Made by a program: the position numbers and the translations under genes. From positions 1-41,972 of IMG/VR virus record IMGVR_UViG_3300011113_000741: a stretch of 41,972 nucleotides of DNA. One strand, written 5' to 3'. The notes under the pieces are model-generated. The model was not told the origin of the DNA. It did no database searches and saw only the letters and a program-made list of their open reading frames with translations. This document shows, one piece after another, positions 19,601-36,688 of this stretch; position 1 is the first letter of the stretch; the number at the start of each line of letters is the position of its first letter. The stretch is from a virus.

Positions 19601-20250
19601 ATACTGGCCCTGCGTATACTGTAACAATAAACGATCCGACCGTTGGAAGCGAATTGAATAATTCTGATATTGTTGTATCTGCAGCTGATCTATATGTTGA
19701 TGCTGGCCAAATAGTTAACATTGCCTCTACGCCTGGTGTTCTCTTGAGTTTAGGCGCAATTGCCGGCCTGTCGGGGCTTGCAGTATCTGCTATATCAAAT
19801 GCAATAGCCGCAGGGACAGAGGGTGCTGGAGTTCCGCTTGACGTTCCTCTTGGAGACTTCTTCGGGTCTACAGCACGTACATTCACCTCTCCTTACAATA
19901 ATCCGCTAACTAAAGCGTTTGAGGATAAAATGGGAGAAGGCCTGGCAGGCGTTGTTAAGAACTTGTCTTTCACGTGGATGGATGTTCCGTGGGAAGTCGA
20001 TTGGAATTCACGTGCACCCATGGCATGCAAGGTGAACATCACATTTGCTCCGATCCATGATATTGCTCCTGGTCTCGATTCTAACGGATTTAACAGAGCC
20101 CCAATTTACAATGTCGGACAGATTATGCACGACTCTTTCGGCAGCCCGAGGGCAGATGGTGGCAATGCTAGCAGATATTTCTACAGAAAGGGCGGAACTG
20201 TGGCTGAGCAGGCTGCAAATCCTGAGAATTTTCAGCCTTACAAGATATAG
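16585..20250 (+). CDS. Very large baseplate/tube-initiator-like virion protein (gp48/gp54-type C-terminal half)
   Basis: Product of 1221 aa from ATG 16585, preceded by GGAGG at 16577-16581; a TTG four codons upstream is less likely. The C-terminal half holds features of tail-tube initiator proteins: YMPFNFRDLRTNEIVAFHAF, then GFGRADPIQNYSNTNRSIGL, then a helix with FDEMWFKINKLTTLVYPQYT, and near the end NLSFTWMDVPWEVD and INITFAPIHDI-like strands. The first 600 or so residues are unrelated to anything I recognise. T4 gp48 and gp54 are each under 370 aa, so this protein may combine a tube-cap fold with a large baseplate domain. It sits between tape measure and gp53-like genes, as expected for a baseplate-tube junction. 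Confidence 0.65.
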   Translation: MSTRQTLRDFLTSIGSTSTGISYVVDRGANDVVDEGDDLGVDPGTSKRLLEFDASSTLLGDYVSHITARNQFPISPGTHQAPNSTRGSALQPAESSGATSVFAEVTTGEFAEPLNRSNSTIFDSAGYPLDSLVDKTGDGSAKSGNTLLTEIVSADGNSDTEIDQAPVVLGSFSALKKYNRFSPTSDPSSFSNDDAGYPQTSVAYAEDNVMRVQVGDGVYEPQTAEVSADISQEDLRNAARSMILKAAGWDTTTFPNQASDPGTAFDDVASLSLSKFPSIANREQGTVDHYRAQDSFGMPVASNGEDSILAGRGDAVQKSISESKYMLTRGSTHTADQRFTDDQSKSPPSNERVQALQAGIAMLGLANIIDNRVTLMNTDLESLQVSKDKVLRGPYSLGTSIKSNVSAKMRALIHSFMFQTGIYSYTACVSEGLYACFGLSSEFSALTTGISYETPNIAQNYESEILKISNNLDYDSSAYFDSPMYLSHGFWRAVSESAIRSIKNVQESAESLSGADFVGSILQTKDSLAVRIMNVFCSIGYQRLVMQGITSEAAAAGDPIKNPYDLDSYPIAPGTRQMKSRDGTLISNASLAWRNSSLPSMFILPVEAMAATLDMDYMFDPDKGANPIKGMLGSTMYDKTYVKGIRNSNAIPPIAAKLLEDRLGAEYMPFNFRDLRTNEIVAFHAFLETLTDGYTANFTETKGFGRADPIQNYSNTNRSIGLSFWVVATSKEDFDEMWFKINKLTTLVYPQYTRGRSVSQKDESASIGSIIGQTVNFEQPFSQIAGGTPVIRMRVGDLIKTNYSRSNFAKLFGVGNDSFFVTTAGVGDAVAAGLTSGLAGGTGAGSFGQDSSQQNGFEKATQNIDLRLAPFLVYAASPMELTQFTSLAQGQIASGIAQAATDVAAEFLAYYLKNGFVNPLLYGDRYKFFGNDPGSPSSRADNAGADTSTSELEFFGLKSSLILKARSTPYIASTKDENTGFYRKIKILRPVLVKYKNTVTTNNQNDTGPAYTVTINDPTVGSELNNSDIVVSAADLYVDAGQIVNIASTPGVLLSLGAIAGLSGLAVSAISNAIAAGTEGAGVPLDVPLGDFFGSTARTFTSPYNNPLTKAFEDKMGEGLAGVVKNLSFTWMDVPWEVDWNSRAPMACKVNITFAPIHDIAPGLDSNGFNRAPIYNVGQIMHDSFGSPRADGGNASRYFYRKGGTVAEQAANPENFQPYKI

Positions 20251-20267
20251 AGATGTGAGGTGATTAA

Positions 20268-20561
20268 ATGGCAACAAGTAGATACGCATTCGTGAACAGA
20301 ATTAACGGCGAGAAGATTTCAACAACTGATATAAGCTCCAAAATATACTTTGCAGTAAATCAAAACAGAATTAGATACAACACGATTAGACTTACTGAGA
20401 ATCGAAGGCTTGACCACATCGCAGGGCAGGCGTATGGAGATTCATCACTTTGGTGGGTCATTGCTTCCGCATCTGGAATAGGATGGAATCTGCAGTGTCC
20501 GTCTGATACAATTCTAAATGTCCCAGCAGATTTAAACCAAGTCTTCAGCTTGCTAAGGTAG
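20268..20561 (+). CDS. gp53: Baseplate wedge protein gp53-like with LysM-type fold
   Basis: Product of 97 aa. After an N-terminal strand region, residues about 44-90 read RRLDHIAGQAYGDSSLWWVI then IGWNLQCPSDTILNVPADL, the degenerate LysM-like pattern seen in phage tail and baseplate LysM proteins, including T4 gp53 (196 aa). In baseplates such LysM folds bridge wedge and hub and do not bind peptidoglycan. A GAGGTGA ribosome site precedes the ATG, and the next gene starts three bases after the stop. Confidence 0.75.
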   Translation: MATSRYAFVNRINGEKISTTDISSKIYFAVNQNRIRYNTIRLTENRRLDHIAGQAYGDSSLWWVIASASGIGWNLQCPSDTILNVPADLNQVFSLLR

Positions 20562-20564
20562 AAA

Positions 20565-23393
20565 ATGGCAGACTCTTATACAACACCTGCAACCAACGTT
20601 GAGGCATACACTGCCCTAAGGGAAGCAGCTGACGGATTGCTAAAATATGTTGCGTTTGGTGACCTCAGCGAGCAAAACAATGCAAAGGTGTCTGTCCAAA
20701 ACCTTGCCAACCCAAGAGCTTCTGCGGAATCAAGCTTTTGTGAGCAATTATTGGGCAGCTCCGAGGCTGTTCCCGACAACAACCTGTTGAGTGCGCAGCT
20801 ACAGCCTGCTAGCAAGGGTGGCAGGCTATCAGAAGAGGAAGCAAAGGATCCTGGCATCATCCTGCACACTCCGACGCTGATGGACTCAAAAATTGATCCA
20901 ACCAGAAACATCTCTCTTGTCTATCACAAGGCTCGCACCAAGGTTGATTTTGCGTCATCTCTTTCTGATATTTCTGCACTTTTTTGCAATCTAATGCCAA
21001 CCACGGAGCTTTCTCTCTGCGTTCCGTACTTCGATGTCAGGATATTCTACCCAAAAGAGCCGACAGGCCTTGGAAAGCTTAGCCCATTTAGGTTTGTTGG
21101 AATCGGAAAAAAGCAGTCTGAGAGCTTTGACGAAACAAACACAGAAGATCAGAACCTGATTGGAACAGACGTGGCAGGCATGGAAATATTTTGCATGCCA
21201 CAGACGCTTGTTGGTCAAAATTCGCAAATAAACAGCCCGGAGATGATAGAGGCAAGAGGTTTGCAAGCCATTGATCCGTCAGTGCCTCTCATGACGCTAG
21301 AAAGCGCAAACGTGCAGCAAGTCGGAGTCGGGGGATCTCTCTATGCGCAGACCAAGGTAGATCTAAAACTTGTATTGCATGATAGGTCTCGGCTCTCTGA
21401 TATAGAGCCGCTCATATCTGTTGAGGTCTTCCCGACAGTAACTTTTAGAATAGAATACGGGTGGTCACACCCAGACACCAACGACATGATGGGTGGTGCT
21501 TACGCAAAACTTCTGAATAGAATGAGAGTAAAACAAGATTTCGCTTTGTACTCTGTCTCAGTTGGCACAAGAGATGCAAACTCTCTAAACATTAGCATAA
21601 GCCTTGTATCTAAGGGAGACTACATTGCCAAAAGCGCAGGGATCATATCAGCGGGAGGAGACTACATACCTTACACAGCAGTTCTGTCTCTTCTGAGACA
21701 ATTCGTTAATGTTCAATCTTCCAAGACAACGGACGATAAAACTTCTTTAAATCCAGTGAACTACGTTTCAAAGGCTGGATCCACGGTTATAGCGAGCACA
21801 TCTGATGGTGTAACAAGCAATAAGTTTGTGTCAATTGCTGCATTTTATAAGTTCTATAAGTCAATAAAAAAGATTACTGATGGTGAAAAAGCTGACAGTG
21901 CTCAATTGTCGGAAATTATAAAAGAGCTAACTGCGCTTGATGTAAGTGGTGCTAGCACGACTCTAGAGGATTACACATCGAATCTTTTTGAGCTAAAGGT
22001 TGCGGGTTCGACCAAGCCAACAATTTATGGATCAGAAATCACACCTTTCCCAATCACAAATCCTGATGGTACTTCAAGATACTTTAATTACTCAGCATCT
22101 TTGGGCAATATTACCAAGATAGAGAGCGAGACTGGAACGTCGGTCAGCACAGATCAGGAGATATCTGGTGCTCCTGTTGTGCCGCTGGCTTCTCTCGTTG
22201 CTAAGCTTGTCGCAAAGCCAATCATGCTTTCGGATCCCACGATATCAGAGGCCAGGATACATTGCTTCTCTTTTAATTCTACTTGCGGGGCTATGGCGCA
22301 GGAAAACATTGGTAATTTTCCAATAGTCGTGAATGATCTGCTTGAGCGGCAAGAAGGAGACAAAAAGATTTCTGGTCTCAATTCAAGATCTTCTGCAGCC
22401 TCAGCATTTAGCAAGATCCTGGCACAAGTCAACAATCCGGCATCAAAATACTACGGATTTTCACTAGAACAGAACAATCTAGACCAAGAAGTCAAAAAGA
22501 TTCAAGAGGGCTACACGCCTTCTGAAGATTCTGAAGCTGATGATGCTGCGAGAAAGGAAGCACAAGCCAAGATTGACGCAAAAGTAAAAGCTGCTAACGC
22601 TGAAATAGAGCAAAAGAACAAAGATTTTCTGAAGGCGAAGAATATCACAGGAAATGAGATTGCATTCGTTCCTCCTCGGATAAAATACCAGATGGAGGTG
22701 GTGCCCGCATATTCCAGCACAGCGCTAATTGACAAGCCTAACAAGTCGATTCTTCGGATCATCATCTACGATGATCGTGCAGGAAACTTTAACAATCTTG
22801 GAAATCTACTTTTTTCAATGATCAACAACAGCGGTGTTGCAACAGTAGATGGATCGCTTACTGATTCTGATTACCTTGTCAAGCTTGACCCGCCAAATGA
22901 GGACGGCACAACAAACTATGCTGTGAAAAGCATACGTGCACTTCGAGAAATTGTCTCAAAGATGTATCCAACAATAACAATTGGAATAGAGGGAACTGTC
23001 GTTGAATCTGCAACTTTCAACTCGCAGCCATCTGGAGAGATTGCATCCTCCTATCTGTTGACAGCTACGGGCGGGACAGGAACTTCATCCGTCTATGGAA
23101 GTAGCGCAAATGCTGACATGGCAGATGATGTGCTTGTTATTCCTTCTACAGTTAGCATCAACATGCTAGGAAATGTGTGTCTTTCAAGGGGACAGACATA
23201 CTACATTGATTTTGGCACAGGAACCACGATTGATAACACCTACACTGTGCAGTCTGTTAGTCACAGCTTCAGACCCGGACAGTTCAAGACGAGTGCCACA
23301 TTCCTGCCTGTCAGTTCTGCTACAATGAGAACTGTCACCAGGCAGCTAAATGATCTCAGAAAGCTTGCTATACGAGCAGCGCCTGCAGTTTAG
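20565..23393 (+). CDS. Large baseplate hub-like virion protein
   Basis: Product of 942 aa. A segment around residue 300 (FPTVTFRIEYGWSHPDTND) and the C-terminal block INMLGNVCLSRGQTYYIDFG followed by YTVQSVSHSFRPGQFKTSAT resemble hub proteins of the T4 gp27 / phage gpD kind, in which a final beta domain closes the hub ring. Between them are a Lys/Ala/Glu-rich coiled coil (around residues 650-700) and mixed alpha/beta regions. It is much larger than T4 gp27 (391 aa). It is the last gene of the tail block before replication genes. Hub function is inferred from the C-terminal pattern and neighbours. Confidence 0.6.
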   Translation: MADSYTTPATNVEAYTALREAADGLLKYVAFGDLSEQNNAKVSVQNLANPRASAESSFCEQLLGSSEAVPDNNLLSAQLQPASKGGRLSEEEAKDPGIILHTPTLMDSKIDPTRNISLVYHKARTKVDFASSLSDISALFCNLMPTTELSLCVPYFDVRIFYPKEPTGLGKLSPFRFVGIGKKQSESFDETNTEDQNLIGTDVAGMEIFCMPQTLVGQNSQINSPEMIEARGLQAIDPSVPLMTLESANVQQVGVGGSLYAQTKVDLKLVLHDRSRLSDIEPLISVEVFPTVTFRIEYGWSHPDTNDMMGGAYAKLLNRMRVKQDFALYSVSVGTRDANSLNISISLVSKGDYIAKSAGIISAGGDYIPYTAVLSLLRQFVNVQSSKTTDDKTSLNPVNYVSKAGSTVIASTSDGVTSNKFVSIAAFYKFYKSIKKITDGEKADSAQLSEIIKELTALDVSGASTTLEDYTSNLFELKVAGSTKPTIYGSEITPFPITNPDGTSRYFNYSASLGNITKIESETGTSVSTDQEISGAPVVPLASLVAKLVAKPIMLSDPTISEARIHCFSFNSTCGAMAQENIGNFPIVVNDLLERQEGDKKISGLNSRSSAASAFSKILAQVNNPASKYYGFSLEQNNLDQEVKKIQEGYTPSEDSEADDAARKEAQAKIDAKVKAANAEIEQKNKDFLKAKNITGNEIAFVPPRIKYQMEVVPAYSSTALIDKPNKSILRIIIYDDRAGNFNNLGNLLFSMINNSGVATVDGSLTDSDYLVKLDPPNEDGTTNYAVKSIRALREIVSKMYPTITIGIEGTVVESATFNSQPSGEIASSYLLTATGGTGTSSVYGSSANADMADDVLVIPSTVSINMLGNVCLSRGQTYYIDFGTGTTIDNTYTVQSVSHSFRPGQFKTSATFLPVSSATMRTVTRQLNDLRKLAIRAAPAV

Positions 23394-23426
23394 TGTAAAG
23401 ACATGTTTGAATAGAAATAATATTGT

Positions 23427-24557
23427 GTGAGAATTTTATTTGATTCAAATTTAACAGGTGCAAGCAAGGATTTCATCTGGGAAGATGGAAGTCTCCACTT
23501 TTCAGATCTAAGCAATCCAGATTGGCATTTTGACACTAGAAAAAAGAGGGCAGGATGTGTTAGAGCTGCATCAGAAGCTGCAGGATTAAATCTTGTCTTG
23601 GAGCCTGGTTCACCACAGGTAAAGTTCTGGAAGAAGCACACGCAGTTTCCTGCGTGGCACAGAATACTGACTCGTGATAAGTTTGAGGACCACATCAGGA
23701 ATCAAATTAGAGTCGTTACCGACTTCCTTTCTGATGAGAACAACAAATATTTTCTAACCACCTTTCAAGTTCAGCAGTCTTTAATCGATGCATTACAACC
23801 CGCGCGTGTCAGTGACAAAAGCCTCCAAGAGTTTGGATTTTTGCCAGATAGAGACGGATTTGTATCGATTCCTGAATATGACAATGTCAGCTCTTCAACC
23901 GGAAGGATGTCGATTAAGTCCGGACCTAAAATCTTGACCATGCAGAGAGATCTTAGAAAGAACATTGTCTCGCGGTGGAGCGATGGCGTCCTTGTCGAGG
24001 TTGATTTCAGAGCGCTCGAAGCAAGAGTTTTGTGCTGGATTTGTGGAAACAAGCCGGATACAGACGACGTCTACGAGTGGATATCGAAAAAAATGGAGAC
24101 AGGCAACGTCCCAAGGGAAGTGGTAAAAGAGGCGACCCTTGCTGCAATCTACGGGATGTCAAGAAGAAACTTCGTGCTAAGATACCAGGACATGCCAGAT
24201 TCCCCAGAGATATACGATTCCATTCGAAAACTGATGAGGGTCAAAGACCTAGAGGACAAGCTCACAAAATTAGATAGATTTGAAAATGCATTTGGTAGAC
24301 CGCTACGCGATGCAAACGCGAGAGTGAGTCATCACGTTCAATCGTCTGCTGTTGACATTGCGTGCCACGGGTTTCATGACCTCTTGAAGCACATCGATGG
24401 AGATCATGCAGTTCCAATCTTTTTAATTCATGATGCTATTGTGCTAGATGTTAGAAAAAGCTATGTGCCTGAAGTTGAGAAAATCTGTAAAGAAGGGCTA
24501 ATGATCGATATCATTGGTCATCGTTTTCCTGTTAAAGCTGGGAGATTCATTAAATGA
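23427..24557 (+). CDS. Minimal family A (Pol I-type) DNA polymerase domain
   Basis: Product of 376 aa from a GTG start with no clear ribosome site. It contains the polymerase core: SSSTGRMSIKSGPKILTMQR (residues 155-174, like the TGRLSSxxPNLQ motif), motif A VDFRALEAR with D193, motif B R230-x3-K234-x7-Y242-G243, a GRP..N..VQSSAVDIA segment (290-312) and motif C LIHDAIVLDV with H335 and D336. The position of Pol I F762 is Leu, and the Glu after the motif C HD is Ala. No 3'-5' exonuclease or 5' nuclease domain is present; typical phage family A enzymes exceed 550 aa. It adds nucleotides to DNA if active. It overlaps the next gene by 4 bases. It might be an accessory or repair polymerase; T4 itself uses family B. 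Confidence 0.85.
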   Translation: MRILFDSNLTGASKDFIWEDGSLHFSDLSNPDWHFDTRKKRAGCVRAASEAAGLNLVLEPGSPQVKFWKKHTQFPAWHRILTRDKFEDHIRNQIRVVTDFLSDENNKYFLTTFQVQQSLIDALQPARVSDKSLQEFGFLPDRDGFVSIPEYDNVSSSTGRMSIKSGPKILTMQRDLRKNIVSRWSDGVLVEVDFRALEARVLCWICGNKPDTDDVYEWISKKMETGNVPREVVKEATLAAIYGMSRRNFVLRYQDMPDSPEIYDSIRKLMRVKDLEDKLTKLDRFENAFGRPLRDANARVSHHVQSSAVDIACHGFHDLLKHIDGDHAVPIFLIHDAIVLDVRKSYVPEVEKICKEGLMIDIIGHRFPVKAGRFIK

Positions 24558-25150
24558 GTGAGAGTGAGATTGTTCAAAATTTTGAAAAGTTTCGTAAGCT
24601 TCTACTGCGTGTAGAAAGTAGAAAGCAATTTCTTGAACCCTTCCTAGAAAAATACGGAGATAGAATTGCAACATCTCCTGGGCACGATAGAGGCAATAAG
24701 CAGGCCGCAGCACCGGGCGGTTTGGTAAAGAGGAGCCTGATTACCTTCTCAAATGCTCGAGATCTTTGCAAGCTTCCAGCTTTCGCAGAGAGAGAGATTG
24801 ACATTGAGTCAGTCATAATTGTAAGTCTATTATATGACATCGGCAGGATTGGAGACGAGAAGGGCGATTTCTATCTTCCACAGACCTCTTCGTGGCACAT
24901 CGAGAGAGGAAATCTTTACACCCACAATCCAGAAATTAGGCGGATGACACATCCGCACAGGGGCCTGTGCCTAATGCAATCAGAGGGCATTAGGCTTACT
25001 CAGGACGAGTGGATGACAATAATTTCACAACCAAACGCGTATGAAGAATCAAAATTTTATTCCGGGAGCGACATTCCGCTTATGTCTCTTTTTCATGCAG
25101 CGCTAAAGATTACCGGAATGGTAGACTCTTGCGGACCTGAGAATATTTAG
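24554..25150 (+). CDS. HD-domain-like protein with lost metal ligands (pseudo-hydrolase)
   Basis: Product of 198 aa, ATGA-coupled to the polymerase. The layout follows phage HD-domain phosphohydrolases: PGGLVKRSL (usual GGLLxHSL), VIIVSLLYDIGRIGD (usual LLHDIxK), MTHPHRGLCLMQ (usual LGHGEKS), WMTIISQPN (usual IRWHMG) and LMSLFHAALKI (usual LLHxAD). Thus R60, Y94, Q159 and L184 replace expected ligands, while D95 and one later His remain. The fold looks kept while catalysis looks lost, suggesting a structural, binding or regulatory partner, perhaps of the polymerase. The alignment was made by eye from memory of the family. Confidence 0.65.
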   Translation: MSESEIVQNFEKFRKLLLRVESRKQFLEPFLEKYGDRIATSPGHDRGNKQAAAPGGLVKRSLITFSNARDLCKLPAFAEREIDIESVIIVSLLYDIGRIGDEKGDFYLPQTSSWHIERGNLYTHNPEIRRMTHPHRGLCLMQSEGIRLTQDEWMTIISQPNAYEESKFYSGSDIPLMSLFHAALKITGMVDSCGPENI

Positions 25151-25155
25151 ATAAT

Positions 25156-26430
25156 GTGAGCAGAAAACCAGACGGAACACAGAGATCGGGTAGATTCACT
25201 GCGCCTCCTGCAGCGGGCGCTTTTGGTGGATCTGATACAGCATTGTCTCGACTAGCACGCCCATTTGTTCCCCAGCCCTTTAGGTCTACGGGAGGCATGA
25301 GCACATCAGCCGACACCATGATGTCAATCGGAATGGGCAGGCACAATACGGACGAGGAGATGCCAGACGACCAGATCAATATCAACGCGATTGTGAGTAG
25401 AAAAGTTTCTGATCGAAGATATTTACCTAGAAAGATAGGCAACATGAAGAATCTTCTACACACAGTTCCGATTTCAGAATCTCTTGCAATGTCTAGCGAC
25501 GATATCCACAAAAATTTTATGCTCTATGAGTTTTCTTTTTCAGATATCGGAAGCGGATTATCCAACCTAATCCCGGGCATGGGAAAGCAAGATACCAAAG
25601 CATCAGGAAATTCTGATTCGACTGGCGGGTTCCTCGATTCTGCGCTGCAGATTGGTGCATCATTCATTCCTTTCGCGGGAGACATCTACAAGGGCGTCAG
25701 AGCATACAGGACTTACGGAGACATAGAGGAAGAAGTAAAAGATCTTTTGGGTAGATTGGCTTCTGAGGTTGGTCTAATTGATCTCTATGCCTCTCCTCAA
25801 AACTCTGTAAACAGACAGAGAATTGAAAGAATTGCACTTAGGTCACAGACTGACAAGGATGAAATACTTGTCGCAACTACAAAGATCGCAACACTTGCAG
25901 TTGAATTTTTAATTGATGCTCTTTCATCGATTCCTTTTGAAGTTATCCCAAATCCGATTGCTGCCAAGGTTGACTCTATAATAGACGCAACGATCGCTTC
26001 GGCATTGCAGGTTGCTCCTTCGATCGACCCAACCGGAGAGAAGACAGCTTTAAACTTCTACAAGGTGGGAACAGAGATGGCTGACTCCATAAGGAGCCTA
26101 GCAGATAGCTTACCCGATCTTATGGTGCCAGATCAGCTTATATCAATGTGCAATTTGATATCTAATCTTGGCATAATTCATGGTGTTGTTAGCGGTTCTG
26201 ACAAAATTGCAGATCAAGAACCCAACGCAGATGCAGACGTTCCGCTTGCTGAGCGGAAGAATAGAAAGAAGCGTCGTGCAGACGAGATGAGCACAACCGG
26301 GAATGTAGCTGGCTACGTCGGGAAAGTTGCAGGTCCCGCCAACCCCAGGCAATTTTACTCTACCATGGCAAGAGCAGCAGGAAGCGAGTATCTTACTGAT
26401 CCTCTTAAAACTGCTAAACCAAAGCCTTGA
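25156..26430 (+). CDS. Unknown 424-aa protein with hydrophobic central helices
   Basis: Starts at GTG 25156, five bases after the preceding stop. I recognise no family. Residues 1-60 are Gly/Pro/Arg-rich and probably disordered. Around residues 155-185 a hydrophobic stretch with Gly and Pro (QIGASFIPFAGDIYKGVRAY) recalls helix-hairpin segments found in phage structural proteins and in toxin pre-domains. Further Ala/Ile-rich helices follow (residues 230-350), then a basic cluster RKNRKKRRADEM. No clear signal peptide. It lies between replication-type genes but could be a virion protein injected or packaged with DNA. Function unknown. Confidence 0.6.
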   Translation: MSRKPDGTQRSGRFTAPPAAGAFGGSDTALSRLARPFVPQPFRSTGGMSTSADTMMSIGMGRHNTDEEMPDDQININAIVSRKVSDRRYLPRKIGNMKNLLHTVPISESLAMSSDDIHKNFMLYEFSFSDIGSGLSNLIPGMGKQDTKASGNSDSTGGFLDSALQIGASFIPFAGDIYKGVRAYRTYGDIEEEVKDLLGRLASEVGLIDLYASPQNSVNRQRIERIALRSQTDKDEILVATTKIATLAVEFLIDALSSIPFEVIPNPIAAKVDSIIDATIASALQVAPSIDPTGEKTALNFYKVGTEMADSIRSLADSLPDLMVPDQLISMCNLISNLGIIHGVVSGSDKIADQEPNADADVPLAERKNRKKRRADEMSTTGNVAGYVGKVAGPANPRQFYSTMARAAGSEYLTDPLKTAKPKP

Positions 26431-26544
26431 AAACTCTCGCTCCCCAGTTTATGATTGGGGTGTGAGCTTACAACGCAAGCCACAAGAATTCTCTTGAGAC
26501 TTAAGAATTGTAAGTTGCACATTAAACATTAAAGGAAAGAAAAA
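26431..26544 (+). promoter_or_regulatory. Structured leader of the ssDNA-binding protein gene
   Basis: This 114-base leader can fold. CTTACAA (26467-26473) pairs with TTGTAAG (26508-26514); inside that loop GCAA (26475-26478) can pair with TTGC (26515-26518), which gives pseudoknot topology, and CAAGA/TCTTG (26483-26496) makes a small inner hairpin. CCCCA/TGGGG (26442-26460) is another possible stem. The ribosome site AAAGGAAAG follows. T4 gene 32 is translationally autoregulated through a leader pseudoknot, so a similar control is plausible here but unproven. Confidence 0.4.
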
Positions 26545-27501
26545 ATGGCAATTAACTTCGACGCTATTCGCAAGCGTCTCGACAACCTGTCTGGAAACAC
26601 TAAGAAGTCCTCTACCTCCTGGAAGCCGAAGGAAGGAGAGGAGTACACAGTTCGTCTTCTTGCATTTCCCACCCTTCACGAAGTAAAGAAGGGCGACACG
26701 ACATCTTCTATCTGCAAGAAGTACGATCTTAGTCTCGCAAAGCTCCAGGCCATGAACCCAGACGTTGATTTTGATTCGACTCTCAAGGAGGGCGTCAAGC
26801 TGACAATTCGTGATGATGGACAGCCTTTCAAGGAGCTTTGGTTCTATTACAACATCGGGAACAACCCGGGTCTTCTCACTCCGAATCAGTTTGGAAAGCC
26901 TGATCCTATCCAGGAGCTGATCACAAAGCTTCGTACTGAGGGTACCAAAGAGTCCTACGAGCTCGCAAAGAAGCTCTATCCGAAAATGCGTTGCTATGCA
27001 GCAGTCGTAGTTCGTGGTGAGGAGGAAAAGGGAGTCCAGATTTGGGGATTCGGTAAGCAGGTCTACCAGGCACTCCTTGGGATTATGCTTGATGAGGACT
27101 ACGGCGACATCACCGATCCTGAGGGTGGTCGTGACGTGAAGGTCAAGTGCTACAAGCCGCAGGGTAAGAAGTTCGCTGAGACCGAGGTTATGCCCCGCGG
27201 TAAGGCTAGTGCGCTCTCTCCGAATTCTGCTACCGCAAAGCAGTGGCTCGACAACATTCCAGACGTCAACAAGATGTTTGAGCTCAAGTCCTACGAGGAG
27301 CTTTCGAAGATCGTGAATGACTGGGTTGAAGGTGGAATGCCGACTGAGTCCGATGGTACTTCTCGCGGTGGAGATAACAAGGTTGCTGCTGTTGCTGATG
27401 AGGATGATGATTCTCCTCCGCCATCCAAGCCTGCTGCAAATACACCCAAGAAGACGTTCAAGTCTCTTGATGATGCTTTCAACGATCTAATCGACTCTTA
27501 G
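26545..27501 (+). CDS. Single-stranded DNA-binding protein, gp32-like, with inserted LysM domain
   Basis: Product of 318 aa that should coat ssDNA during replication and recombination. N-terminal MAINFDAIRKRLDNLSGNTK and EEYTVRLLAFP, then PFKELWFYYNIGNNPGLL, the central KMRCYAAVVVRGEEEKGVQI and YGDITDPEGGRDVKVKCY, and the acidic C-terminal tail (DEDDDSPPP ... DDAFNDLIDS) are typical of gp32-type proteins of large T4-like phages; the acidic tail recruits partners in T4. Residues 46-88, between LLAFP and DGQPFKEL, are a near-canonical LysM domain: EVKKGDTTSSICKKYDLS, LQAMNPD and LKEGVKLTI. The CxxC-type zinc site of T4 gp32 is not evident. The gene has a structured leader and ends before a GC-rich hairpin. 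Confidence 0.88.
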   Translation: MAINFDAIRKRLDNLSGNTKKSSTSWKPKEGEEYTVRLLAFPTLHEVKKGDTTSSICKKYDLSLAKLQAMNPDVDFDSTLKEGVKLTIRDDGQPFKELWFYYNIGNNPGLLTPNQFGKPDPIQELITKLRTEGTKESYELAKKLYPKMRCYAAVVVRGEEEKGVQIWGFGKQVYQALLGIMLDEDYGDITDPEGGRDVKVKCYKPQGKKFAETEVMPRGKASALSPNSATAKQWLDNIPDVNKMFELKSYEELSKIVNDWVEGGMPTESDGTSRGGDNKVAAVADEDDDSPPPSKPAANTPKKTFKSLDDAFNDLIDS

Positions 27502-27509
27502 TAGTCTTT

Positions 27510-27542
27510 CGGGCCCGGAGTATAAATTGTGCTCCGGGCCCG
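27510..27542 (+). terminator. GC-rich hairpin between ssb and uvsX, with TATAAAT in its loop
   Basis: A perfect 11-bp stem (27510-27520 with 27532-27542) closes an 11-base loop that contains TATAAAT (27521-27527). TACTGTTT follows, a weak T-tract. It may end the ssDNA-binding protein transcript. The AT-rich loop resembles a T4 late promoter core (TATAAATA), so the site could be both terminator and promoter. Confidence 0.6.
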
Positions 27543-27564
27543 TACTGTTTCACAAGGAGAAAAA

Positions 27565-28725
27565 ATGGCAAGAATTGCAAAGGATAAATCTAGGGGAGAT
27601 GATTCATCGTCAGATTTTACCGCTGATCTAATCTCTTCTCTCAACAAAGAGCACGGTTCTAGGATTGCTTACAACCTGTCTGAGGATGAATCTCCAACTC
27701 ACGTGAAGCGATGGATCTCTACTGGATCTACATTGCTTGATTACATCGTGGCTAATCGCGCAAAGGGAGGCCTTCCCGAGGGTCGTATCATAGAGATCTT
27801 TGGTCCGCCCTCGATTGGTAAGAGTCACATCGCTACGCAGATTGCAAGATCCACACAGCAGATGGGAGGCATCTGTGTCTACGTAGACACTGAGAATGCA
27901 ACATCTGTTGAGAATCTTGGTGCGCTCGGCGTTGATGTTAGCAAGCGATTTGTCTACGTTGATACACACTGCACTGAAGAAGTCTTTGATGTGGCAGAGA
28001 AGACTATCGTTAAGGCAAAGGCGATGCAGAAAGATGTCCCAATCACCATCATTTGGGACTCTGTCGCTGCCTCATCTCCAAAAGCAGAGCTCTTAGGTGA
28101 CTACGACAAGGACAGTATCGGATTGCAGGCACGAGCCATCTCAAAGGGAATGAGGAAGATCACCGGAGTCATCGGCGACCAATCAGTCCTAATGGTCTGT
28201 CTAAATCAGACTCGCACAAAGATCGGTGTGCTTCACGGCGATCCGACAACTGTGCCAGGAGGAATGGCAATTCCATTCCACGCATCAGTTCGTATCAAGC
28301 TGGGTGCAGGTCAGCAGATCCAGAACAAGAACGGCGACATCATTGGAATTAACGTCTCTGCGAAGACTGTCAAAAACAAGGTTGCACCACCCTTTAGGAT
28401 GGCTAACTTTCGAATTATCTTCGGTAAGGGAATCGAGGAGCACGAAGAGATCTTTGACGTTCTACGAGATGCCGGAGAGCGAATCATTGGAAACAAGGCA
28501 ATCTGCGTCTCTGGTACAACTGCCTGGAAGGTATTTTCAGTGACTGATCTTGATGCTGGAAAACCTCTGATCGAGAAGAAGTTCTACAAGGCAGAGTTTG
28601 GTGAGCTTCTTGCCAATCCTGATTACAAGCCCTATCTTGATGCTTTGATTGAGAATGTTCTTGTCAGAACAGGAGACGAGGCTCCTGATGAAGCGCAGGA
28701 TGTAGAGGGAGAAGTAGAAGAATGA
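27565..28725 (+). CDS. uvsX: RecA/UvsX-like recombinase
   Basis: Product of 386 aa from ATG 27565, which follows AAGGAGAAAAA; an upstream GTG at 27529 lies inside the hairpin and is rejected. The RecA core is complete: Walker A GPPSIGKS, strand IIWDSVAASSP as Walker B, a SIGLQARAISKGMRKITG helix and a VCLNQTRTKIGVLHG segment with the conserved Gln-Thr. It forms filaments on ssDNA and drives strand exchange, working with the ssDNA-binding protein encoded just upstream. The C-terminal tail is acidic (DEAPDEAQDVEGEVEE). It overlaps the next gene by ATGA. Confidence 0.93.
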   Translation: MARIAKDKSRGDDSSSDFTADLISSLNKEHGSRIAYNLSEDESPTHVKRWISTGSTLLDYIVANRAKGGLPEGRIIEIFGPPSIGKSHIATQIARSTQQMGGICVYVDTENATSVENLGALGVDVSKRFVYVDTHCTEEVFDVAEKTIVKAKAMQKDVPITIIWDSVAASSPKAELLGDYDKDSIGLQARAISKGMRKITGVIGDQSVLMVCLNQTRTKIGVLHGDPTTVPGGMAIPFHASVRIKLGAGQQIQNKNGDIIGINVSAKTVKNKVAPPFRMANFRIIFGKGIEEHEEIFDVLRDAGERIIGNKAICVSGTTAWKVFSVTDLDAGKPLIEKKFYKAEFGELLANPDYKPYLDALIENVLVRTGDEAPDEAQDVEGEVEE

Positions 28726-29678
28726 AAGGTGAGGCATCGATCTTGATGGTCGATGCTCTCAACCTCTTCACCCGTCACTTTGTCGCACACCCAGCAATGG
28801 GTGTGAATGGCAATCATCTGGGCGGTGTTGTTGGGTTTATGGGAGAGCTTCGATCTCTTTGTACCCGGTTTAGGCCCAAGAGAGTCTATGTTGTCTGGGA
28901 AAGTGGGGGCTCTGCCAAGAGAAGGTCTCTGTATTCGGATTACAAAATGCATAGACGCCCAGAGAAGCTAAACAGATATTACGAAGAAGACATCCCACAG
29001 ACAGTTTCAGATAGGAACAGCCAGATCGTAGCTATAGTGAAGCTTCTAAATTACCTGCCAATCGTACAGATGTACGGACAAGATTGTGAGGCTGATGATG
29101 TCATAGCCTACATCTGCAGGTACATGCATCCTGAGTGTTTGCATATCATCTTATCAGCTGATAAAGACTACTATCAGTTGATTCGAGACAACTCAATCAT
29201 TTACTCGCCAACCTGGAAAAAGCTTGTCGACACAGATGAGGTGTTGAGCAAGTTTTCCGTCCACCCAAATAACTTTGCGCTTGCAAAAGCTGTGTGTGGA
29301 GATGACTCAGATAACATACCCGGCGTGCAAGGTGTCGGATTTAAGACGCTTGCTAAGAGATTTCCCGAGCTGTCAAATTCGGAAGATGTTATGCTTGAAG
29401 ATTTCATCGGACTCGCAGAGTCTAGAAAGACAGGCAAGGTGAAGATCTTTGACTCCATCTGCGAATCGACTGATCTGATTCGTAGAAATTGGAAACTTGT
29501 TTATCTTGACTCATCTTCAATACCTCCGCAACAGATCGAAAAGATTAGGTTTACGAATGAAAAATGGACCCCGAAGCGTGATAAGATAGGATTCATGCGG
29601 GAAGCACAATCAATTGGAATTAGAAATTTTGATATTGACAGCATGTTCTACTCAGTAAATCACATCGGTGCCGAATGA
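28722..29678 (+). CDS. 5'-3' exonuclease / RNase H, FEN family
   Basis: Product of 318 aa. FEN-type nuclease features in order: LMVDALNLFTRHF (first metal Asp), VYVVWESGGSAKRRSLYSDYK with the basic arch residues, CEADDVIAYIC (acidic cluster), ILSADKDYYQLI (second acidic site) and CGDDSDNIPGVQGVGFKTLA (third site and helix-two-turn-helix/H3TH DNA-binding element). It removes RNA primers and 5' flaps, as does T4 RNase H (305 aa). It is translationally coupled to the recombinase (ATGA overlap) and to the helicase that follows. Confidence 0.92.
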   Translation: MKGEASILMVDALNLFTRHFVAHPAMGVNGNHLGGVVGFMGELRSLCTRFRPKRVYVVWESGGSAKRRSLYSDYKMHRRPEKLNRYYEEDIPQTVSDRNSQIVAIVKLLNYLPIVQMYGQDCEADDVIAYICRYMHPECLHIILSADKDYYQLIRDNSIIYSPTWKKLVDTDEVLSKFSVHPNNFALAKAVCGDDSDNIPGVQGVGFKTLAKRFPELSNSEDVMLEDFIGLAESRKTGKVKIFDSICESTDLIRRNWKLVYLDSSSIPPQQIEKIRFTNEKWTPKRDKIGFMREAQSIGIRNFDIDSMFYSVNHIGAE

Positions 29679-31042
29679 GCGAAGCGTTTTTTAGCCAATA
29701 TGGTAAACAGTTCCAGGAAAAGATCTTTCAAGCATTCCTGACCGATCGAGGTTGGGCAATGCAGATGATTGAGATCATGACTCCCGAGTACTTTGATCTC
29801 AAGTATCTGCAGTATCTCTGTAAGTCATATTTCTCATATCACCAGAAGTATAAAGATTTTCCAACGCTTCCTCTTCTTGTGACCATAATCAAGGATGATT
29901 TGCGCGAGGGGAAGGACACTATTCTTCGCGATCAAATCATTGACTTCTTGCAACGCATCAGGACTAATCCAAACATTGGAGATCTTGATTACGTCAAAGA
30001 CAAATCACTGGACTTCTGCAAGAAGCAAGCGATGAAAGAGGCGCTTGAGAAGGCTGTCGAGATGATTGCGACGGACAATCTTGATTCAGTTGTTGGACTA
30101 ATGAAGGACGCGCTGGCTGCCGGAACTCCCGCATCTGTTGGTCACGACTTTTTTGAGGATATTGAGGCACGCTTTGTAAGGACTCGTCGGCAGGTGTGCC
30201 CGACAGGATTACCGCAGATTGATGCTCCTGATATCTTGAATGGTGGCCTTGGTCGCGGCGAGCTTGGCGTCGTAATCGCGCCAACTGGTGTTGGAAAATC
30301 TCACTTCCTTGTGCAGATGGGTGCAGAAGCACTTCGAGTCGGAAAGAATGTTGTTCACTATACGTTCGAGCTTACTGAATCAGCAGTTGGCTTGAGATAT
30401 GACTCCAATCTTTGCAACATTCCAAGCAACGAGGTAATCGATCGTAAGGAAGAGGTGCTGGACTTCTATAAGAATGCGCAACTTGGGAGGCTAATCATCA
30501 AGGAGTATCCAACGGGTACACCATCTGTCCAGACACTGCGTAATCACATCGAAAAGCTATTGCTAAAGGGTTTTGTTCCGAGCGTTGTCATTATTGACTA
30601 CGCCGACATTATGAAGTCTTCCAGAAAATTTGACTCACTACGTCATGAATTGAAGCTAGTCTATGAAGAGCTTCGAAACATGGCAATGGAGATGAGCATT
30701 CCAATCTGGACTGCGTCTCAGGCAAACCGGGACGCATCAAACTCAGATATTGTTGGACTTGAAAACATGTCTGAGGCTTATGGAAAGGCAATGGTTGCCG
30801 ACGTTGTTTTGTCAATTTCAAGAAAGCCAAATGAAAAATCAACTGGTGCTGGTCGAATCTTTGTTGCCAAGAATCGAGCCGGCCGAGACGGCATGTTGTT
30901 TCCCATGCAGATAGATACTTCCATGTCAAAGTTCGCACTGCTCAACACGGACGAGATGTCACTCAACGACGTGGTTAAGGCAGATGGAACATCAATGAAA
31001 ACACTTCTCAAAGAGAAGTGGAAAGAGATTAACGGTAAATAG
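29675..31042 (+). CDS. Replicative DNA helicase, DnaB / T4 gp41 type
   Basis: Product of 455 aa. An N-terminal helical domain (residues 1-150) leads into a RecA-type motor: GGLGRGELGVVIAPTGVGKS (Walker A), YTFELTESAVGLRYDS, VVIIDYADIMKS (Walker B), WTASQANRD (sensor Gln) and VADVVLSISRKPNEK. This is the hexameric ring helicase that unwinds the fork 5' to 3'. The length matches T4 gp41 (475 aa). Its primase and loader partners are not in the window. ATGA overlap with the nuclease gene. Confidence 0.93.
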   Translation: MSEAFFSQYGKQFQEKIFQAFLTDRGWAMQMIEIMTPEYFDLKYLQYLCKSYFSYHQKYKDFPTLPLLVTIIKDDLREGKDTILRDQIIDFLQRIRTNPNIGDLDYVKDKSLDFCKKQAMKEALEKAVEMIATDNLDSVVGLMKDALAAGTPASVGHDFFEDIEARFVRTRRQVCPTGLPQIDAPDILNGGLGRGELGVVIAPTGVGKSHFLVQMGAEALRVGKNVVHYTFELTESAVGLRYDSNLCNIPSNEVIDRKEEVLDFYKNAQLGRLIIKEYPTGTPSVQTLRNHIEKLLLKGFVPSVVIIDYADIMKSSRKFDSLRHELKLVYEELRNMAMEMSIPIWTASQANRDASNSDIVGLENMSEAYGKAMVADVVLSISRKPNEKSTGAGRIFVAKNRAGRDGMLFPMQIDTSMSKFALLNTDEMSLNDVVKADGTSMKTLLKEKWKEINGK

Positions 31043-31048
31043 TTCGGG

Positions 31049-31067
31049 TATAATGATCCCCAAGGAG
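31049..31067 (+). promoter_or_regulatory. TATAAT element and ribosome site before nrdJ
   Basis: TATAAT at 31049-31054 lies in the short gap between helicase and nrdJ, followed by AAGGAG at 31062-31067. No -35 box is visible at normal spacing, so if it is a promoter it would be of a phage-specific type, or the match is chance. Confidence 0.35.
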
Positions 31068-31073
31068 CTGTGA

Positions 31074-33569
31074 ATGTCTGAGTCTGTCAAAGCTAGAGCC
31101 CTTCGTGAGACATCGGAGTATTTTGGAGGAGATGAACTAGCACCTGACGTGTTTATGAAGTATGCTCTTCGCAACGGTGATGATCTACTGGAGACAAATC
31201 CAGACCAGATGCATCGTCGACTTGCAAAGGAATTTGCGCGTATTGAGTCAAAGTATCCAAATCCGCTAGATGAGCAGACAATCTACGAATATCTCGAGGA
31301 CTTCAAATATATTGTGCCGCAGGGCTCTCCCATGTCGGGCATCGGCAATCCTCACCAGCTACAGTCTCTCTCGAATTGCTTTGTCGTGGATCAGCCCCAT
31401 GACAGTTATTCTGGTATTCTCTTCACGGACCAGGAACAGGTCCAGATTATGAAGCGTCGCGGGGGTGTTGGGTTTGACATCTCGACCATACGTCCGAAGG
31501 GGCAGCCTACGTCCAATGCTGCTCGGACAACCGATGGTATTGGTGTTTTCATGGAGAGATTCTCCAATTCCACGCGCGAGGTGGCGCAGGGTGGTCGTCG
31601 CGGCGCCCTCATGCTCACCATCGACTGTCGCCATCCCGAGATTGAGACCTTCATCGACATCAAGCGCGACCTGAAGAAGGTAACGGGTGCTAACATCTCG
31701 ATCCGGTTCACCGATGAGTTCATGCAGGCTGTAGAGAACAATGTGGGCTTCTGTCTACGCTGGCCAGTCGAGGCTCATCCAGAAGACGCGGAGATCGTGA
31801 AGATGGTCGATGCAAAACAGATCTGGGACAAGTTTGTCGATGCGGCTTGGGCTTCGGCGGAGCCTGGAGCTCTTTTCTGGGACACTGTTGTCAATCACGG
31901 CATTGTCGACTGTTATCGTGACGTTGGCTATAAGACGATCTCAACCAACCCGTGCGGTGAGATTCCACTTAGCCCCTATGACTCGTGTCGCCTGATGGTT
32001 GTCAACCTCACTTCATTCGTGAAGGAGCCATTCACGGGAAATGCCCAGTTCGACTTTGAGGAGTTTGGAAAGGCAGTCTACGTGGCACAGCGTCTCATGG
32101 ACGATCTTGTAGATCTCGAAGTCGAGTGTGTTGATCGAGTACTTGCCAAGATCGATAGAGATCCCCAGCCAGATCATGTGAAGAAGATTGAACGAGACCT
32201 CTGGACCAAGATTCGTGCTGCTGGACTTAACGGTCGGAGGACTGGTCTCGGTGTAACTGGTCTCGGCGATGCCCTTGCTGCTCTTGACCTCAAATATGGA
32301 TCTGATGGTTCTATCCAAATGACAGAGTTTATCTACCGTCACTTGGCAAGGTGGGCGCATTATTCATCTCTTGTAATGGCAAAAGAGCGAGGATCCTTCC
32401 CGGTATGGGACTACGAGAAGGAGAAAGATCACAAGTATCTAAACAGCGTCATGGATACCATCGTGCCGCTCGATAAAGATGCCCGTGACATGTGGAAGAC
32501 CACCGGACGACGCAACATCGCACTCACCACCACCGCCCCGGTCGGATCAGTCTCAATTCTTACACAGACAACTTCTGGCATCGAGCCAGCCTTCCTCCTG
32601 TCATACAAGCGCCGCCGCAAGATCACACAGGGAGACATCACATCTAGGGTCGACTATGTGGATCCGATGGGTGACAAATGGCAGGAGTACACGGTCTACC
32701 ACCACTGGTTCAAGAAGTGGATGGAAATCACCGGAAAGTCTGATCCGCAGGAGAGCCCATACTGGGGAGGGACTGCCAACGACATTGACTGGACGAAGTC
32801 GGTCGAAATTCAGGCAGCAGCTCAAAAGTGGATTGACCACTCGATCTCAAAGACTTGCAATCTTCCAAACTCTGCGACTCGTGAGACCGTCAACGACGTC
32901 TATATGAAAGCCTGGAAGTCCGGTTGCAAGGGATTCACAGTCTACCGAGACGGATGCAGGACTGGCGTTCTTGTTCAAAATGATGAGCCCAAGAAAGAAA
33001 AGAAGGCTGATGATGGCAGAAGCATCCCAAAGCGTCCAAAGTCTCTGCCTTGTGACATTCACCGTGCAAATGTTCGAAATGGAGAAAATTCAGAATCCTG
33101 GCTTGTTCTTGTGGGTCTCAATGAAGGAAAGCCGTATGAGGTCTTCTGTGGTATTCCAGAGAACATTGAGATTCCAAAGAAATACAAGTCCGGAATTCTC
33201 ATCAAGAATGGAAAGCGTGATGGTGTAACGACATACAACCTACAGGTTCCTGTTGGTGACGATGAAAACCTTGTATTCAAGGACATTATCAATCTATTTG
33301 ATAATCCTACGCAAGGCGCGTTTTCAAGAACAGTTTCACTTGCCCTTCGCCACGAGGTGCCTCTTCACTACGTAGTTGAGCAGCTTCAGAAAGACAAGAG
33401 TAGTGACATGTTCTCTTTTGCGAGGGTTATTGCTCGAGTCTTAAAGGGCTATATTAAGGATGGGACTGCTTCTTCTGAGAAAGGGTGTCCGCAGTGCGGG
33501 AACACAGAGCTTGTCTACCAGGAAGGATGCCTTTCTTGCAAGAATTGCTCTTACTCTAAGTGCGGCTAG
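31074..33569 (+). CDS. nrdJ: Class II (adenosylcobalamin-dependent) ribonucleotide reductase
   Basis: Product of 831 aa that reduces ribonucleotides to deoxyribonucleotides for DNA synthesis. Visible residues: SLSNCFV with the first redox Cys (C102), NPCGEIPL with the thiyl-radical Cys C294 and Glu296, the second redox Cys in DSCRLMVVNL (C305), and a C-terminal Cys-rich tail (CPQCGN ... CLSCKNCSYSKCG) that recycles the active site and is typical of NrdJ. No NrdB or NrdD-type glycyl-radical signature is present. It needs coenzyme B12 from the host. There is no intein or intron interruption. The ribosome site AAGGAG fixes the ATG at 31074. It opens the nucleotide-metabolism block. Confidence 0.93.
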   Translation: MSESVKARALRETSEYFGGDELAPDVFMKYALRNGDDLLETNPDQMHRRLAKEFARIESKYPNPLDEQTIYEYLEDFKYIVPQGSPMSGIGNPHQLQSLSNCFVVDQPHDSYSGILFTDQEQVQIMKRRGGVGFDISTIRPKGQPTSNAARTTDGIGVFMERFSNSTREVAQGGRRGALMLTIDCRHPEIETFIDIKRDLKKVTGANISIRFTDEFMQAVENNVGFCLRWPVEAHPEDAEIVKMVDAKQIWDKFVDAAWASAEPGALFWDTVVNHGIVDCYRDVGYKTISTNPCGEIPLSPYDSCRLMVVNLTSFVKEPFTGNAQFDFEEFGKAVYVAQRLMDDLVDLEVECVDRVLAKIDRDPQPDHVKKIERDLWTKIRAAGLNGRRTGLGVTGLGDALAALDLKYGSDGSIQMTEFIYRHLARWAHYSSLVMAKERGSFPVWDYEKEKDHKYLNSVMDTIVPLDKDARDMWKTTGRRNIALTTTAPVGSVSILTQTTSGIEPAFLLSYKRRRKITQGDITSRVDYVDPMGDKWQEYTVYHHWFKKWMEITGKSDPQESPYWGGTANDIDWTKSVEIQAAAQKWIDHSISKTCNLPNSATRETVNDVYMKAWKSGCKGFTVYRDGCRTGVLVQNDEPKKEKKADDGRSIPKRPKSLPCDIHRANVRNGENSESWLVLVGLNEGKPYEVFCGIPENIEIPKKYKSGILIKNGKRDGVTTYNLQVPVGDDENLVFKDIINLFDNPTQGAFSRTVSLALRHEVPLHYVVEQLQKDKSSDMFSFARVIARVLKGYIKDGTASSEKGCPQCGNTELVYQEGCLSCKNCSYSKCG

Positions 33570-33604
33570 AATAAAAGCGACACACATGTGGTATCTTTCT
33601 TACT

Positions 33605-34207
33605 ATGAACATCATCACGTGTGTATCGCCTCTAGTCAAGGAAGTAGAACTTCGATCTAGTCCTGTAATCATCAGGGTTAATAAGTTTGAAGAAGACTCC
33701 GCAAAAGAATTTGCGCAGCAGATGTCCCTTGCACAATCAACAGGTCAGCCTGTTATTCCTATCATCATTGATTCGTATGGTGGACAGGTCTACTCGCTCA
33801 TGTCAATGATTGGCAATATCAAGTCTTCCCGGACTCCTGTTGCTACTATTGTCGAGGGAAAGGCCATGAGCTGTGGTGCAATTCTATTTTCTTTCGGACA
33901 TCAAGGATACAGATTCATGGATCCAGATTCTACGATTATGATCCATGACGTCTCATCGGGCGCAATCGGCAAGATTGAAGACATCAAGGCAGACTCCAAA
34001 GAGGCAGAACGTCTCAATCAGAAAGTCTATCGTATGATGGCTGCAAATTGCGGCAAGGAACCTGAGTACTTCCTTAACATCATTCACGAGAAGAGCCATG
34101 CTGATTGGTATCTTGATGCAAATGAAGCGCTACGTCACGGTCTCGCAAATCACACTAGGCTTCCCGATATGAAGATCAGCGTGGATGTAAAATACAAGTT
34201 TGAATAG
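33605..34207 (+). CDS. ClpP-like serine protease
   Basis: Product of 200 aa with a ClpP/crotonase-type fold. DSYGGQVYSLMSMIGNI matches the oxyanion-hole strand and helix, GKAMSCGAILFSFG carries the nucleophile Ser89, STIMIHDVS carries His114, and HADWYLDANEALRHGLAN places Asp167 as the third triad residue. All three catalytic residues appear conserved. Host ClpP works with ClpX or ClpA; this one could exchange into host rings, redirect proteolysis or process phage proteins. It is far from the capsid genes, which argues against the main prohead protease. No Shine-Dalgarno is seen in front of the ATG. Confidence 0.87.
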   Translation: MNIITCVSPLVKEVELRSSPVIIRVNKFEEDSAKEFAQQMSLAQSTGQPVIPIIIDSYGGQVYSLMSMIGNIKSSRTPVATIVEGKAMSCGAILFSFGHQGYRFMDPDSTIMIHDVSSGAIGKIEDIKADSKEAERLNQKVYRMMAANCGKEPEYFLNIIHEKSHADWYLDANEALRHGLANHTRLPDMKISVDVKYKFE

Positions 34208-34214
34208 GTGAAAA

Positions 34215-35228
34215 ATGGTAAATGTAATTGCTGAGTATATTTGGGTTGATGGCTCGACGCCCACGTCGAAACTAAGAAGCAAGACCAAAATCTTTCAGTT
34301 TGAGAAAGAGCGTCTTGCAATTTCTGATATTCCGACATGGACATTTGACGGATCTTCGACAGGGCAGGCACCAGGAGACAAGAGCGATTGTGTTCTTGTG
34401 CCTGTTGCAATGTGCAAAGATCCAATTCGATCAGGAGCAAATGCAATTCTTGTCCTGTGTGAGGTGTATAACGCAGATGGGACGCCTCACACGACAAATA
34501 CAAGAAATCCGCTTGTCAAGCTTATGCAGAAGAAGTCGTATAAAGATCCTCTTTGCGGGATCGAACAAGAGTATACACTTTTTCGAGGCGGGACCCCGCT
34601 AGGCTGGCCAACTGGGGGCTATCCTCCTCAACAAGGACCTTACTATTGCGGCGTAGGAGCAGATGAGGTTTGTGGAAGAGATCTCGTAGAAGAGCACATG
34701 CGTGCGTGTCTTGATGCGGGAATTCTTATCTGCGGAGTTAACGCTGAAGTGATGCCGGGTCAGTGGGAGTTCCAAATTGGAACCTCTGATCCAGTAACAG
34801 TATCAGATCATCTTTGGTTTGCACGGTGGTTGCTCTATAGGATCGGTGAGAAGCACGGAATAAATGCAAAGCTTGATCCGAAGCCTGTTAGGGAGCTTAA
34901 TGGAGCAGGAGCACATACGAACTGGTCAACTAATGCGACAAGAGACCCAGAGTCTGGAATGGTTGAGATCGACAGGATCCTCCACGTACTTAGAATGAGA
35001 CACGATGATCACATCGTTAGATACGGTCACGGCATTGAGCAGAGACTAACCGGGCAACACGAAACTTGTTCTTATAAGGAATTTAGATGCGGAGTCTCAG
35101 ATCGGGGAGCATCAGTTAGAATTCCACTCCATGTGTCTCAGGCAGGGTGCGGATACTTTGAAGATCGCAGACCGTGTGCAAATGTTGATCCATACACTGT
35201 AACTAGACTGCTGCTAGAGGCATCTTGA
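34215..35228 (+). CDS. Glutamine synthetase, type II (eukaryotic-like GSII)
   Basis: Product of 337 aa that would make glutamine from glutamate, ammonia and ATP. It is the short GSII form (about 330-370 aa), not the 470-aa bacterial GlnA. N-terminal grasp domain: AEYIWVDGSTPTSKLRSKTK and WTFDGSSTGQAPGDKSD. Catalytic domain: CGIEQEYTLFRGGTPLGWPT with Glu117 and Glu119, QQGPYYCGVGAD, GVNAEVMPGQWEFQIGT with Glu178 and Glu185, LNGAGAHTNWST with His234, RLTGQHET and YFEDRRPCANVDPY. Every motif is present, so it looks active. It starts 7 bases after the clpP-like gene and overlaps the following membrane gene. Its presence in phage DNA is unusual. Confidence 0.93.
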   Translation: MVNVIAEYIWVDGSTPTSKLRSKTKIFQFEKERLAISDIPTWTFDGSSTGQAPGDKSDCVLVPVAMCKDPIRSGANAILVLCEVYNADGTPHTTNTRNPLVKLMQKKSYKDPLCGIEQEYTLFRGGTPLGWPTGGYPPQQGPYYCGVGADEVCGRDLVEEHMRACLDAGILICGVNAEVMPGQWEFQIGTSDPVTVSDHLWFARWLLYRIGEKHGINAKLDPKPVRELNGAGAHTNWSTNATRDPESGMVEIDRILHVLRMRHDDHIVRYGHGIEQRLTGQHETCSYKEFRCGVSDRGASVRIPLHVSQAGCGYFEDRRPCANVDPYTVTRLLLEAS

Positions 35229-35449
35229 TGAGCACAGACAGCACTGAGCTACTCATCAAGACCGTGATCTGGAGAGTATTTTCAATGCTGTTTGGAATGT
35301 GGGTGACCTACCTTTTCACCGGCGATATCATCAGATCATCAATGATGGTATTGGTGTCTGGTTCGTCACTCACTTTCTTGCAATGGGTATTTGAGATTAT
35401 CTGGGACAGATACTGTAGAGAGAGGATTAGAAATGCCATTTCAGAATAA
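35228..35449 (+). CDS. Small membrane protein, DUF2061-like
   Basis: Product of 73 aa from ATG 35228, which overlaps the last base of the glutamine synthetase stop (TGATG). It has two hydrophobic segments, about residues 14-32 (VFSMLFGMWVTYLFTG) and 36-55, and ends with an aromatic/charged FEIIWDRYCRERIRN. The pattern IKTVIWRVF ... TGDI ... IWDRY resembles the DUF2061 family of predicted membrane proteins of unknown function. Its 3' end overlaps the thyX start. Being coupled to glutamine synthetase suggests, without proof, a link to transport or membrane location. Confidence 0.65.
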   Translation: MSTDSTELLIKTVIWRVFSMLFGMWVTYLFTGDIIRSSMMVLVSGSSLTFLQWVFEIIWDRYCRERIRNAISE

Positions 35450-36654: not shown

Positions 36655-36683
36655 TTGTAAAAGACTTATTTTTATTTTATTGT
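36655..36683 (+). promoter_or_regulatory. Possible promoter before the glycosylase pair
   Basis: TTGTAA (36655-36660), a 17-base AT-rich spacer and TATTGT (36678-36683) lie just before the ATG at 36689, which has no visible Shine-Dalgarno. If used, the message would be nearly leaderless. Weak evidence. Confidence 0.25.
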
Positions 36684-36688
36684 ATGGC

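Follow-up and report, generated by a model that had tools for sequence, protein, structure and literature searches.

Several known phages encode gp32-like single-stranded DNA-binding proteins (SSBs). Those of Microcystis phage Mel-JY01 (WWT39337.1) and Flavobacterium phage immuto 3-5A (QQO91922.1) share with the protein considered here the same profile, an alignable core, the end of the acidic tail, and an adjacent RecA/UvsX-like gene. The gp32 proteins of T4 and RB69 have the same core fold. T4 gp32 lacks a LysM domain. It holds zinc through His64, Cys77, Cys87 and Cys90 (PMC10732053, excerpt). LysM domains (PF01476 / CBM50) are, in their turn, parts of lysins, autolysins and chitinases, and mosaicism of phage LysM domains is reported for endolysins (PMC10684548, excerpt).

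Gp32-like SSBs and LysM domains are each well known. Their combination was not found to be reported; a search of open-access papers gave no report of a LysM-SSB fusion or of a LysM inserted in phage proteins. Here, the combination is found in a single metagenomic virus record (IMGVR_UViG_3300011113_000741), whose 41,972 nucleotides are called the window below. Where the SSBs of Mel-JY01 and immuto 3-5A have a short loop, the window protein has a LysM insert of 46 codons (Table 1). The original prediction, made from the letters alone, had placed a LysM domain at residues 46-88 (26680-26808) of a gp32-type SSB, and translation puts those residues at exactly those positions.

Table 1. Features of the SSB locus in the window
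Feature	Position	Strand	Extent	Basis and remarks
gp32-like ssDNA-binding protein gene	26545..27501	+	318 aa, stop included	ORF, PF08804, phrog_1192, fold match to RB69/T4 gp32 cores
N-terminal gp32 part, upstream of insert	26545..26670	+	residues 1-42	holds first predicted core strand; alignments, strands of insert-free homologue
Net insert	26674..26811	+	46 codons / 138 bp, residues 44-89	alignment to insert-free relatives; edges uncertain by ~1 codon
LysM domain by profile	26677..26808	+	residues 45-88	PF01476; predicted model
Remaining gp32 core and acidic C-terminal tail (end = SLDDAFNDLIDS)	26815..27498	+		alignments; PF08804 residues 111-248
Adjacent UvsX/RecA-like recombinase gene, conserved SSB neighbour	27565..28725	+		phrog_97 1e-68

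That the protein carrying the insert is a gp32-type SSB, as had been proposed, is borne out by profile as well as by fold. Pfam PF08804 matches it with 37.5 bits, against a cut-off of 26.8, and the PHROGs SSB family phrog_1192 matches at 1.9e-17. In an SSB alignment (A1), 68 of 68 members match PF08804 (E up to 0.01), while a LysM match is found in one of the 68. The acidic C-terminal tail is present, with the conserved end seen in the alignments. T4 gp32 differs by its zinc-binding cysteines; cysteine is absent from the window SSB at the positions aligned to all three. Since these are not conserved in the branch, the protein is filed as gp32-like rather than as T4-type.

The order of the SSB and UvsX/RecA-like genes is the same in the nearest relatives (L001-L005), in other loci and in Mel-JY01. 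Among the UvsX loci of a new set, five of 68 are without an SSB, and a close relative (L224) is one of these. Across window positions 18566-34871, genes upstream of the SSB have about 66-75% DNA identity to two relatives (L094, L089), and the replication genes downstream mostly about 80%; these two halves seem to have different evolutionary rates or different histories.

The LysM profile matches far beyond chance expectation. Applied to the whole protein, PF01476 gives 34.8 bits over residues 45-88 (cut-off 20.9, E 1.6e-8); applied to the excised stretch alone, it gives 40.2 bits (E 3.4e-10). The PHROGs family phrog_1274, a "lysM motif protein," matches residues 43-86 at 3e-8, and four LysM-containing NCBIfam models match weakly, all far below their own cut-offs. 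Structure prediction points the same way. An AF2 model of the 318-aa protein, of moderate confidence (68 sequences, mean pLDDT only 67.3, pTM 0.53), places a strand at 42-46, helices at 53-59 and 64-70, and a strand at 85-89, which is the strand-helix-helix-strand order of LysM, in blocks whose pLDDT is 75-85. This part superposes on a solved LysM (5ylg_C) with Z 8.1 and an rmsd of 1.2 Å over 46 residues; a second solved LysM (7r1l_A) matches the model at Z 7.5. The same profile and fold are those of the LysM domains of lysins, autolysins and chitinases; in the window, the domain sits inside an OB-fold DNA-binding protein.

The model also matches gp32 cores (2a1k_B, Z 12.4; 1gpc, Z 12.3), and Foldseek agrees on both the LysM and the gp32 matches. 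Against T4 and RB69 gp32, the insert-free homologue scores higher (Z 15.5-15.9, compared with 12.3-12.4 with the insert). It is structure comparison that reaches gp32; a profile search of solved-structure sequences with A1 did not. The alternative in which residues 46-88 are simply a piece of the OB fold was rejected, the stretch being predicted as a separate LysM fold and its site being a loop in the insert-free homologue.

That homologue (L001, 93% identical to the window protein outside the insert, modelled from 61 sequences at a mean pLDDT of 79.9, Z 15.9 against RB69 gp32) has strands at 33-39 and 50-55 flanking the site, which is to say that the insert falls in a loop between two strands. 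After the gp32 chains, its model (mdf3e4f2f8c67) also matches HIN-200 OB domains such as IFI16 at Z of about 5, a likeness at the level of the shared OB fold only. In alignments, T43 of the window protein lies opposite N43 of the insert-free relatives and D90 opposite N44. Where the window protein reads RLLAFP-LysM-DDGQPFKELW, its closest relatives have RLLSFPNNDGQPFKELW; the domain lies intact between segments that adjoin each other in relatives, just as the original prediction had it. The DNA agrees. Matches end at 26660-26671 and resume at 26813-26815 in 11 of the 11 loci compared (9 contigs), and the insert adds a net 138 bp cleanly and in frame. In T4 gp32 numbering, the alignment puts the site between residues 52 and 53.

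How often might such an insert occur? It was in none of the other records examined. The first scans gave 220 loci with an SSB. The loop is covered in 211, and none of these has the LysM insert; 204 loops are short, four are one residue longer, and another three, which escaped the length rule, can be seen to be short. This count leaves aside the loci that belong to the window (L081, L151), three LysM loci from bacteria and the locus of T4, as well as 10 partial ORFs, two of which (L043, L191) show a short loop. The locus sets share contigs, and the 211 include 134 distinct C-terminal sequences. A further 160 loci, obtained with Mel-JY01-like and L154-like queries, gave no private insert of at least 15 aa by an alignment test. 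The length rule missed 40 of these and flagged two; 30 of those 42 rows were read, and the complete loops are short, one locus (L341) starting within the loop. All of these counts come from scans that took the best 80 of at least 563, of 158, of 106, of at least 599, and of 197 relatives.

Other routes gave no second example among the records examined. PF01476, which was found in 10 of 14 control genomes, is present in one of 53 whole records, many of them fragments, and that one is the window's own. Annotated phages provide 20 records with a relative of the SSB; the one that covers at least 80% of the query, Mel-JY01, has a short loop. A gapped pattern (GD, then GQPFKE) found 11 contigs, eight with a short-loop SSB and three unrelated. 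One candidate for a long loop (L231) was rejected as an ordinary SSB read together with its upstream stretch.

An insert seen in one record raises two other explanations. The first is that the LysM piece is absent from the virus, having been joined to the SSB gene during assembly or amplification. The single record suits this, as does the failure of a degenerate pattern for the left junction to match any other viral contig. Such a chimera would, however, require breaks at two places some 138 bp from each other, each of them in frame and at a domain edge. Further, the relatives that the contig tracks to the left of the insert are those it tracks to the right (DNA identity to L004 is 84.6% as far as 26660, then 80.8% from 26815 on), and gene order is continuous across it, which argues against a chimera. 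The codon use of the insert is also that of the gene; as had been said of it beforehand, the two are alike, with mean log scores of -1.06 for the insert and -1.04 for the rest of the gene, and GC3 values of 0.58 and 0.57. Records nearly identical to the window may be missing from the searched sets, so the absence of a twin says little. A chimera is quite unlikely.

It is very probable that the window's gp32-type OB-fold SSB has truly gained a complete LysM domain in a surface loop. Sequence and models together support the predicted LysM fold, a preserved gp32 fold, a clean in-frame insert, and its absence from the relatives examined.

The second explanation accepts this anatomy and denies it a use. 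Here, a LysM-coding piece would have entered a tolerant loop by illegitimate recombination, and the domain would fold and be carried along as a neutral passenger. This is the main rival, and a possible one, if on the doubtful side. It draws on the single record and on the site, a surface loop in the insert-free model; insertion at a domain edge can, by itself, account for a protein that stays functional. It is less comfortable with composition. The codon use and GC3 of the insert fit the SSB gene and not the window median (GC3 0.44, for 48-codon stretches of ten other window genes), which would fit a domain that has spent time in the gene as well as a donor of similar composition. Nor need the insertion be very recent, since 29-65% of fourfold sites differ between the window and its nearest relatives (L001-L005), even though the three nearest in A1 have 93-94% protein identity outside the insert. 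If the insert is old on that branch, there may have been time for an unused domain to decay.

Ten other window genes, compared with four relatives, show no gap larger than 13 aa where alignment pieces cover them. In one relative (L089, 12312-15728), the ribonucleotide reductase frame runs on without a stop through some 310 aa that are missing from the window gene; judged by eye, this stretch looks like an intein, beginning with CITGDSL and ending before NC.

A donor for the LysM was not found in searches of viral sequences, bacterial genomes and phage records. Among viral sequences, 34 stretches matched the search pattern, none of them coding for a relative. In bacterial genomes, three of 140 pattern matches are relatives, at 44-52% over about 30 residues (Psychrobacillus, Bacillus and a Bacteroidales MAG). 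Seventeen phage records have weak LysM matches, and the donor was not among them. Plasmids gave no match to the whole 318-aa protein.

If the domain does have a use, its position might suggest one directly. Two early strands of the OB fold are joined by the loop that holds the insert, and in OB folds loops of this kind often flank the binding groove. The insert might thus affect DNA binding or cooperativity: a LysM on the rim of the ssDNA trough, or at the contact between monomers, might alter affinity, cooperativity or the spacing of the filament. That gp32 acts as cooperative filaments (PMC12893549, excerpt) is in keeping with this. The insert has, however, no clear excess of positive charge (8 K/R and 8 D/E in residues 43-90, counted by eye), and a modifier of DNA binding is unlikely.

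The original prediction looked instead to what LysM domains do elsewhere, and suggested that the domain could anchor the replication complex to the cell wall or to a LysM-like baseplate protein encoded 6 kb upstream. A version of this would have the LysM bind peptidoglycan, lipid-linked precursors or the baseplate. The domain is a LysM by profile and fold, of course, and its class is known to bind GlcNAc-containing glycans (PMC4004799, excerpt). But SSB works in the cytoplasm and peptidoglycan lies outside it, which makes a wall tether less likely; lipid-linked precursors at the inner face are conceivable partners. No result links the protein to the cell wall, and that part of the proposal is unsupported. 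The baseplate part fares no better. The upstream gene (20268-20561) encodes a protein that is gp53/wedge-like, with no Pfam LysM match and no meaningful similarity to the insert. Tethering of any of these kinds is very unlikely. What stood of the original interpretation is the anatomy, a LysM between two otherwise adjacent segments; what did not are the two tethers.

For the same lack of meaningful similarity, derivation of the insert from the gp53-like protein was rejected. That small baseplate protein is itself assigned by a PHROG wedge match (1.2e-6), Pfam gp53 giving 16.2 bits, below its cut-off of 21. Elsewhere, the window encodes a glutamine synthetase (34215-35225; PF00120 8.5e-14, PF03951 7.3e-13), two different ThyX-type thymidylate synthases (35391-36062 and 39482-40429; PF02511, 7.6e-36 and 1.5e-19), and, at 33605-34204, 36680-37105 and 37118-37918, a ClpP-like protease and two base-excision repair genes (HhH-GPD, formamidopyrimidine-DNA glycosylase).

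The reading preferred here is that a LysM was inserted in one lineage, leaves the gp32 fold intact, and may offer a new surface, either for contact with a protein or as a shield against defences that sense SSB. Taken as a whole, role included, and resting for that role on analogy, this statement is given a probability of roughly 45%. Its mechanics would be simple. The two ends of the LysM are expected to sit in neighbouring strands of one sheet, which should fit a strand-loop-strand turn; the coating of ssDNA should then persist, as it should also from the prediction that the gp32 fold is intact. Every SSB monomer would display one LysM. Less certainly, the added surface would act in the cytoplasm, where it would contact a protein or else cover or change the face by which SSB-sensing host defences detect the SSB, and the LysM would not be a peptidoglycan anchor. 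The idea of a protein-protein clamp, raised at the outset beside the tethers, is close to the preferred reading.

The analogy comes from work on bacterial immunity. Phage SSBs trigger AbpAB and, as cited in the same source, several other defences (PMC10732053, excerpt). The nuclease Hna is directly activated by phage SSB, and phages that escape it carry altered SSBs; there the change is a missense mutation in a T7-like SSB rather than a domain inserted into a gp32 (PMC13381803, excerpt). In a further paper, escape from 15 defences is said to map often to replication proteins, SSB among them (PMC10684548, excerpt). By this analogy, a bulky domain on an SSB could hide or change the surface that is sensed, or could bind a partner. 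The more specific proposal, that the LysM is a working module that alters the way the SSB filament appears to host defences or to replication partners, so that an essential SSB would have been re-equipped for counter-defence or localisation, is improbable as matters stand.

Why does this matter? The phage SSBs compared here are strongly conserved. Several bacterial defences have phage SSBs as their common trigger (PMC10732053, excerpt). Tolerance of a whole domain in a loop of the OB fold would mean that a protein of this kind can be given new parts, and a LysM-bearing SSB is a direct test of whether a change in the SSB surface escapes those defences. A domain that usually reads the sugars of cell walls is now placed in a protein that coats DNA. 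Even if it is carried there as a passenger, the loop of the gp32-like protein would still be marked as a site that accepts a whole domain.
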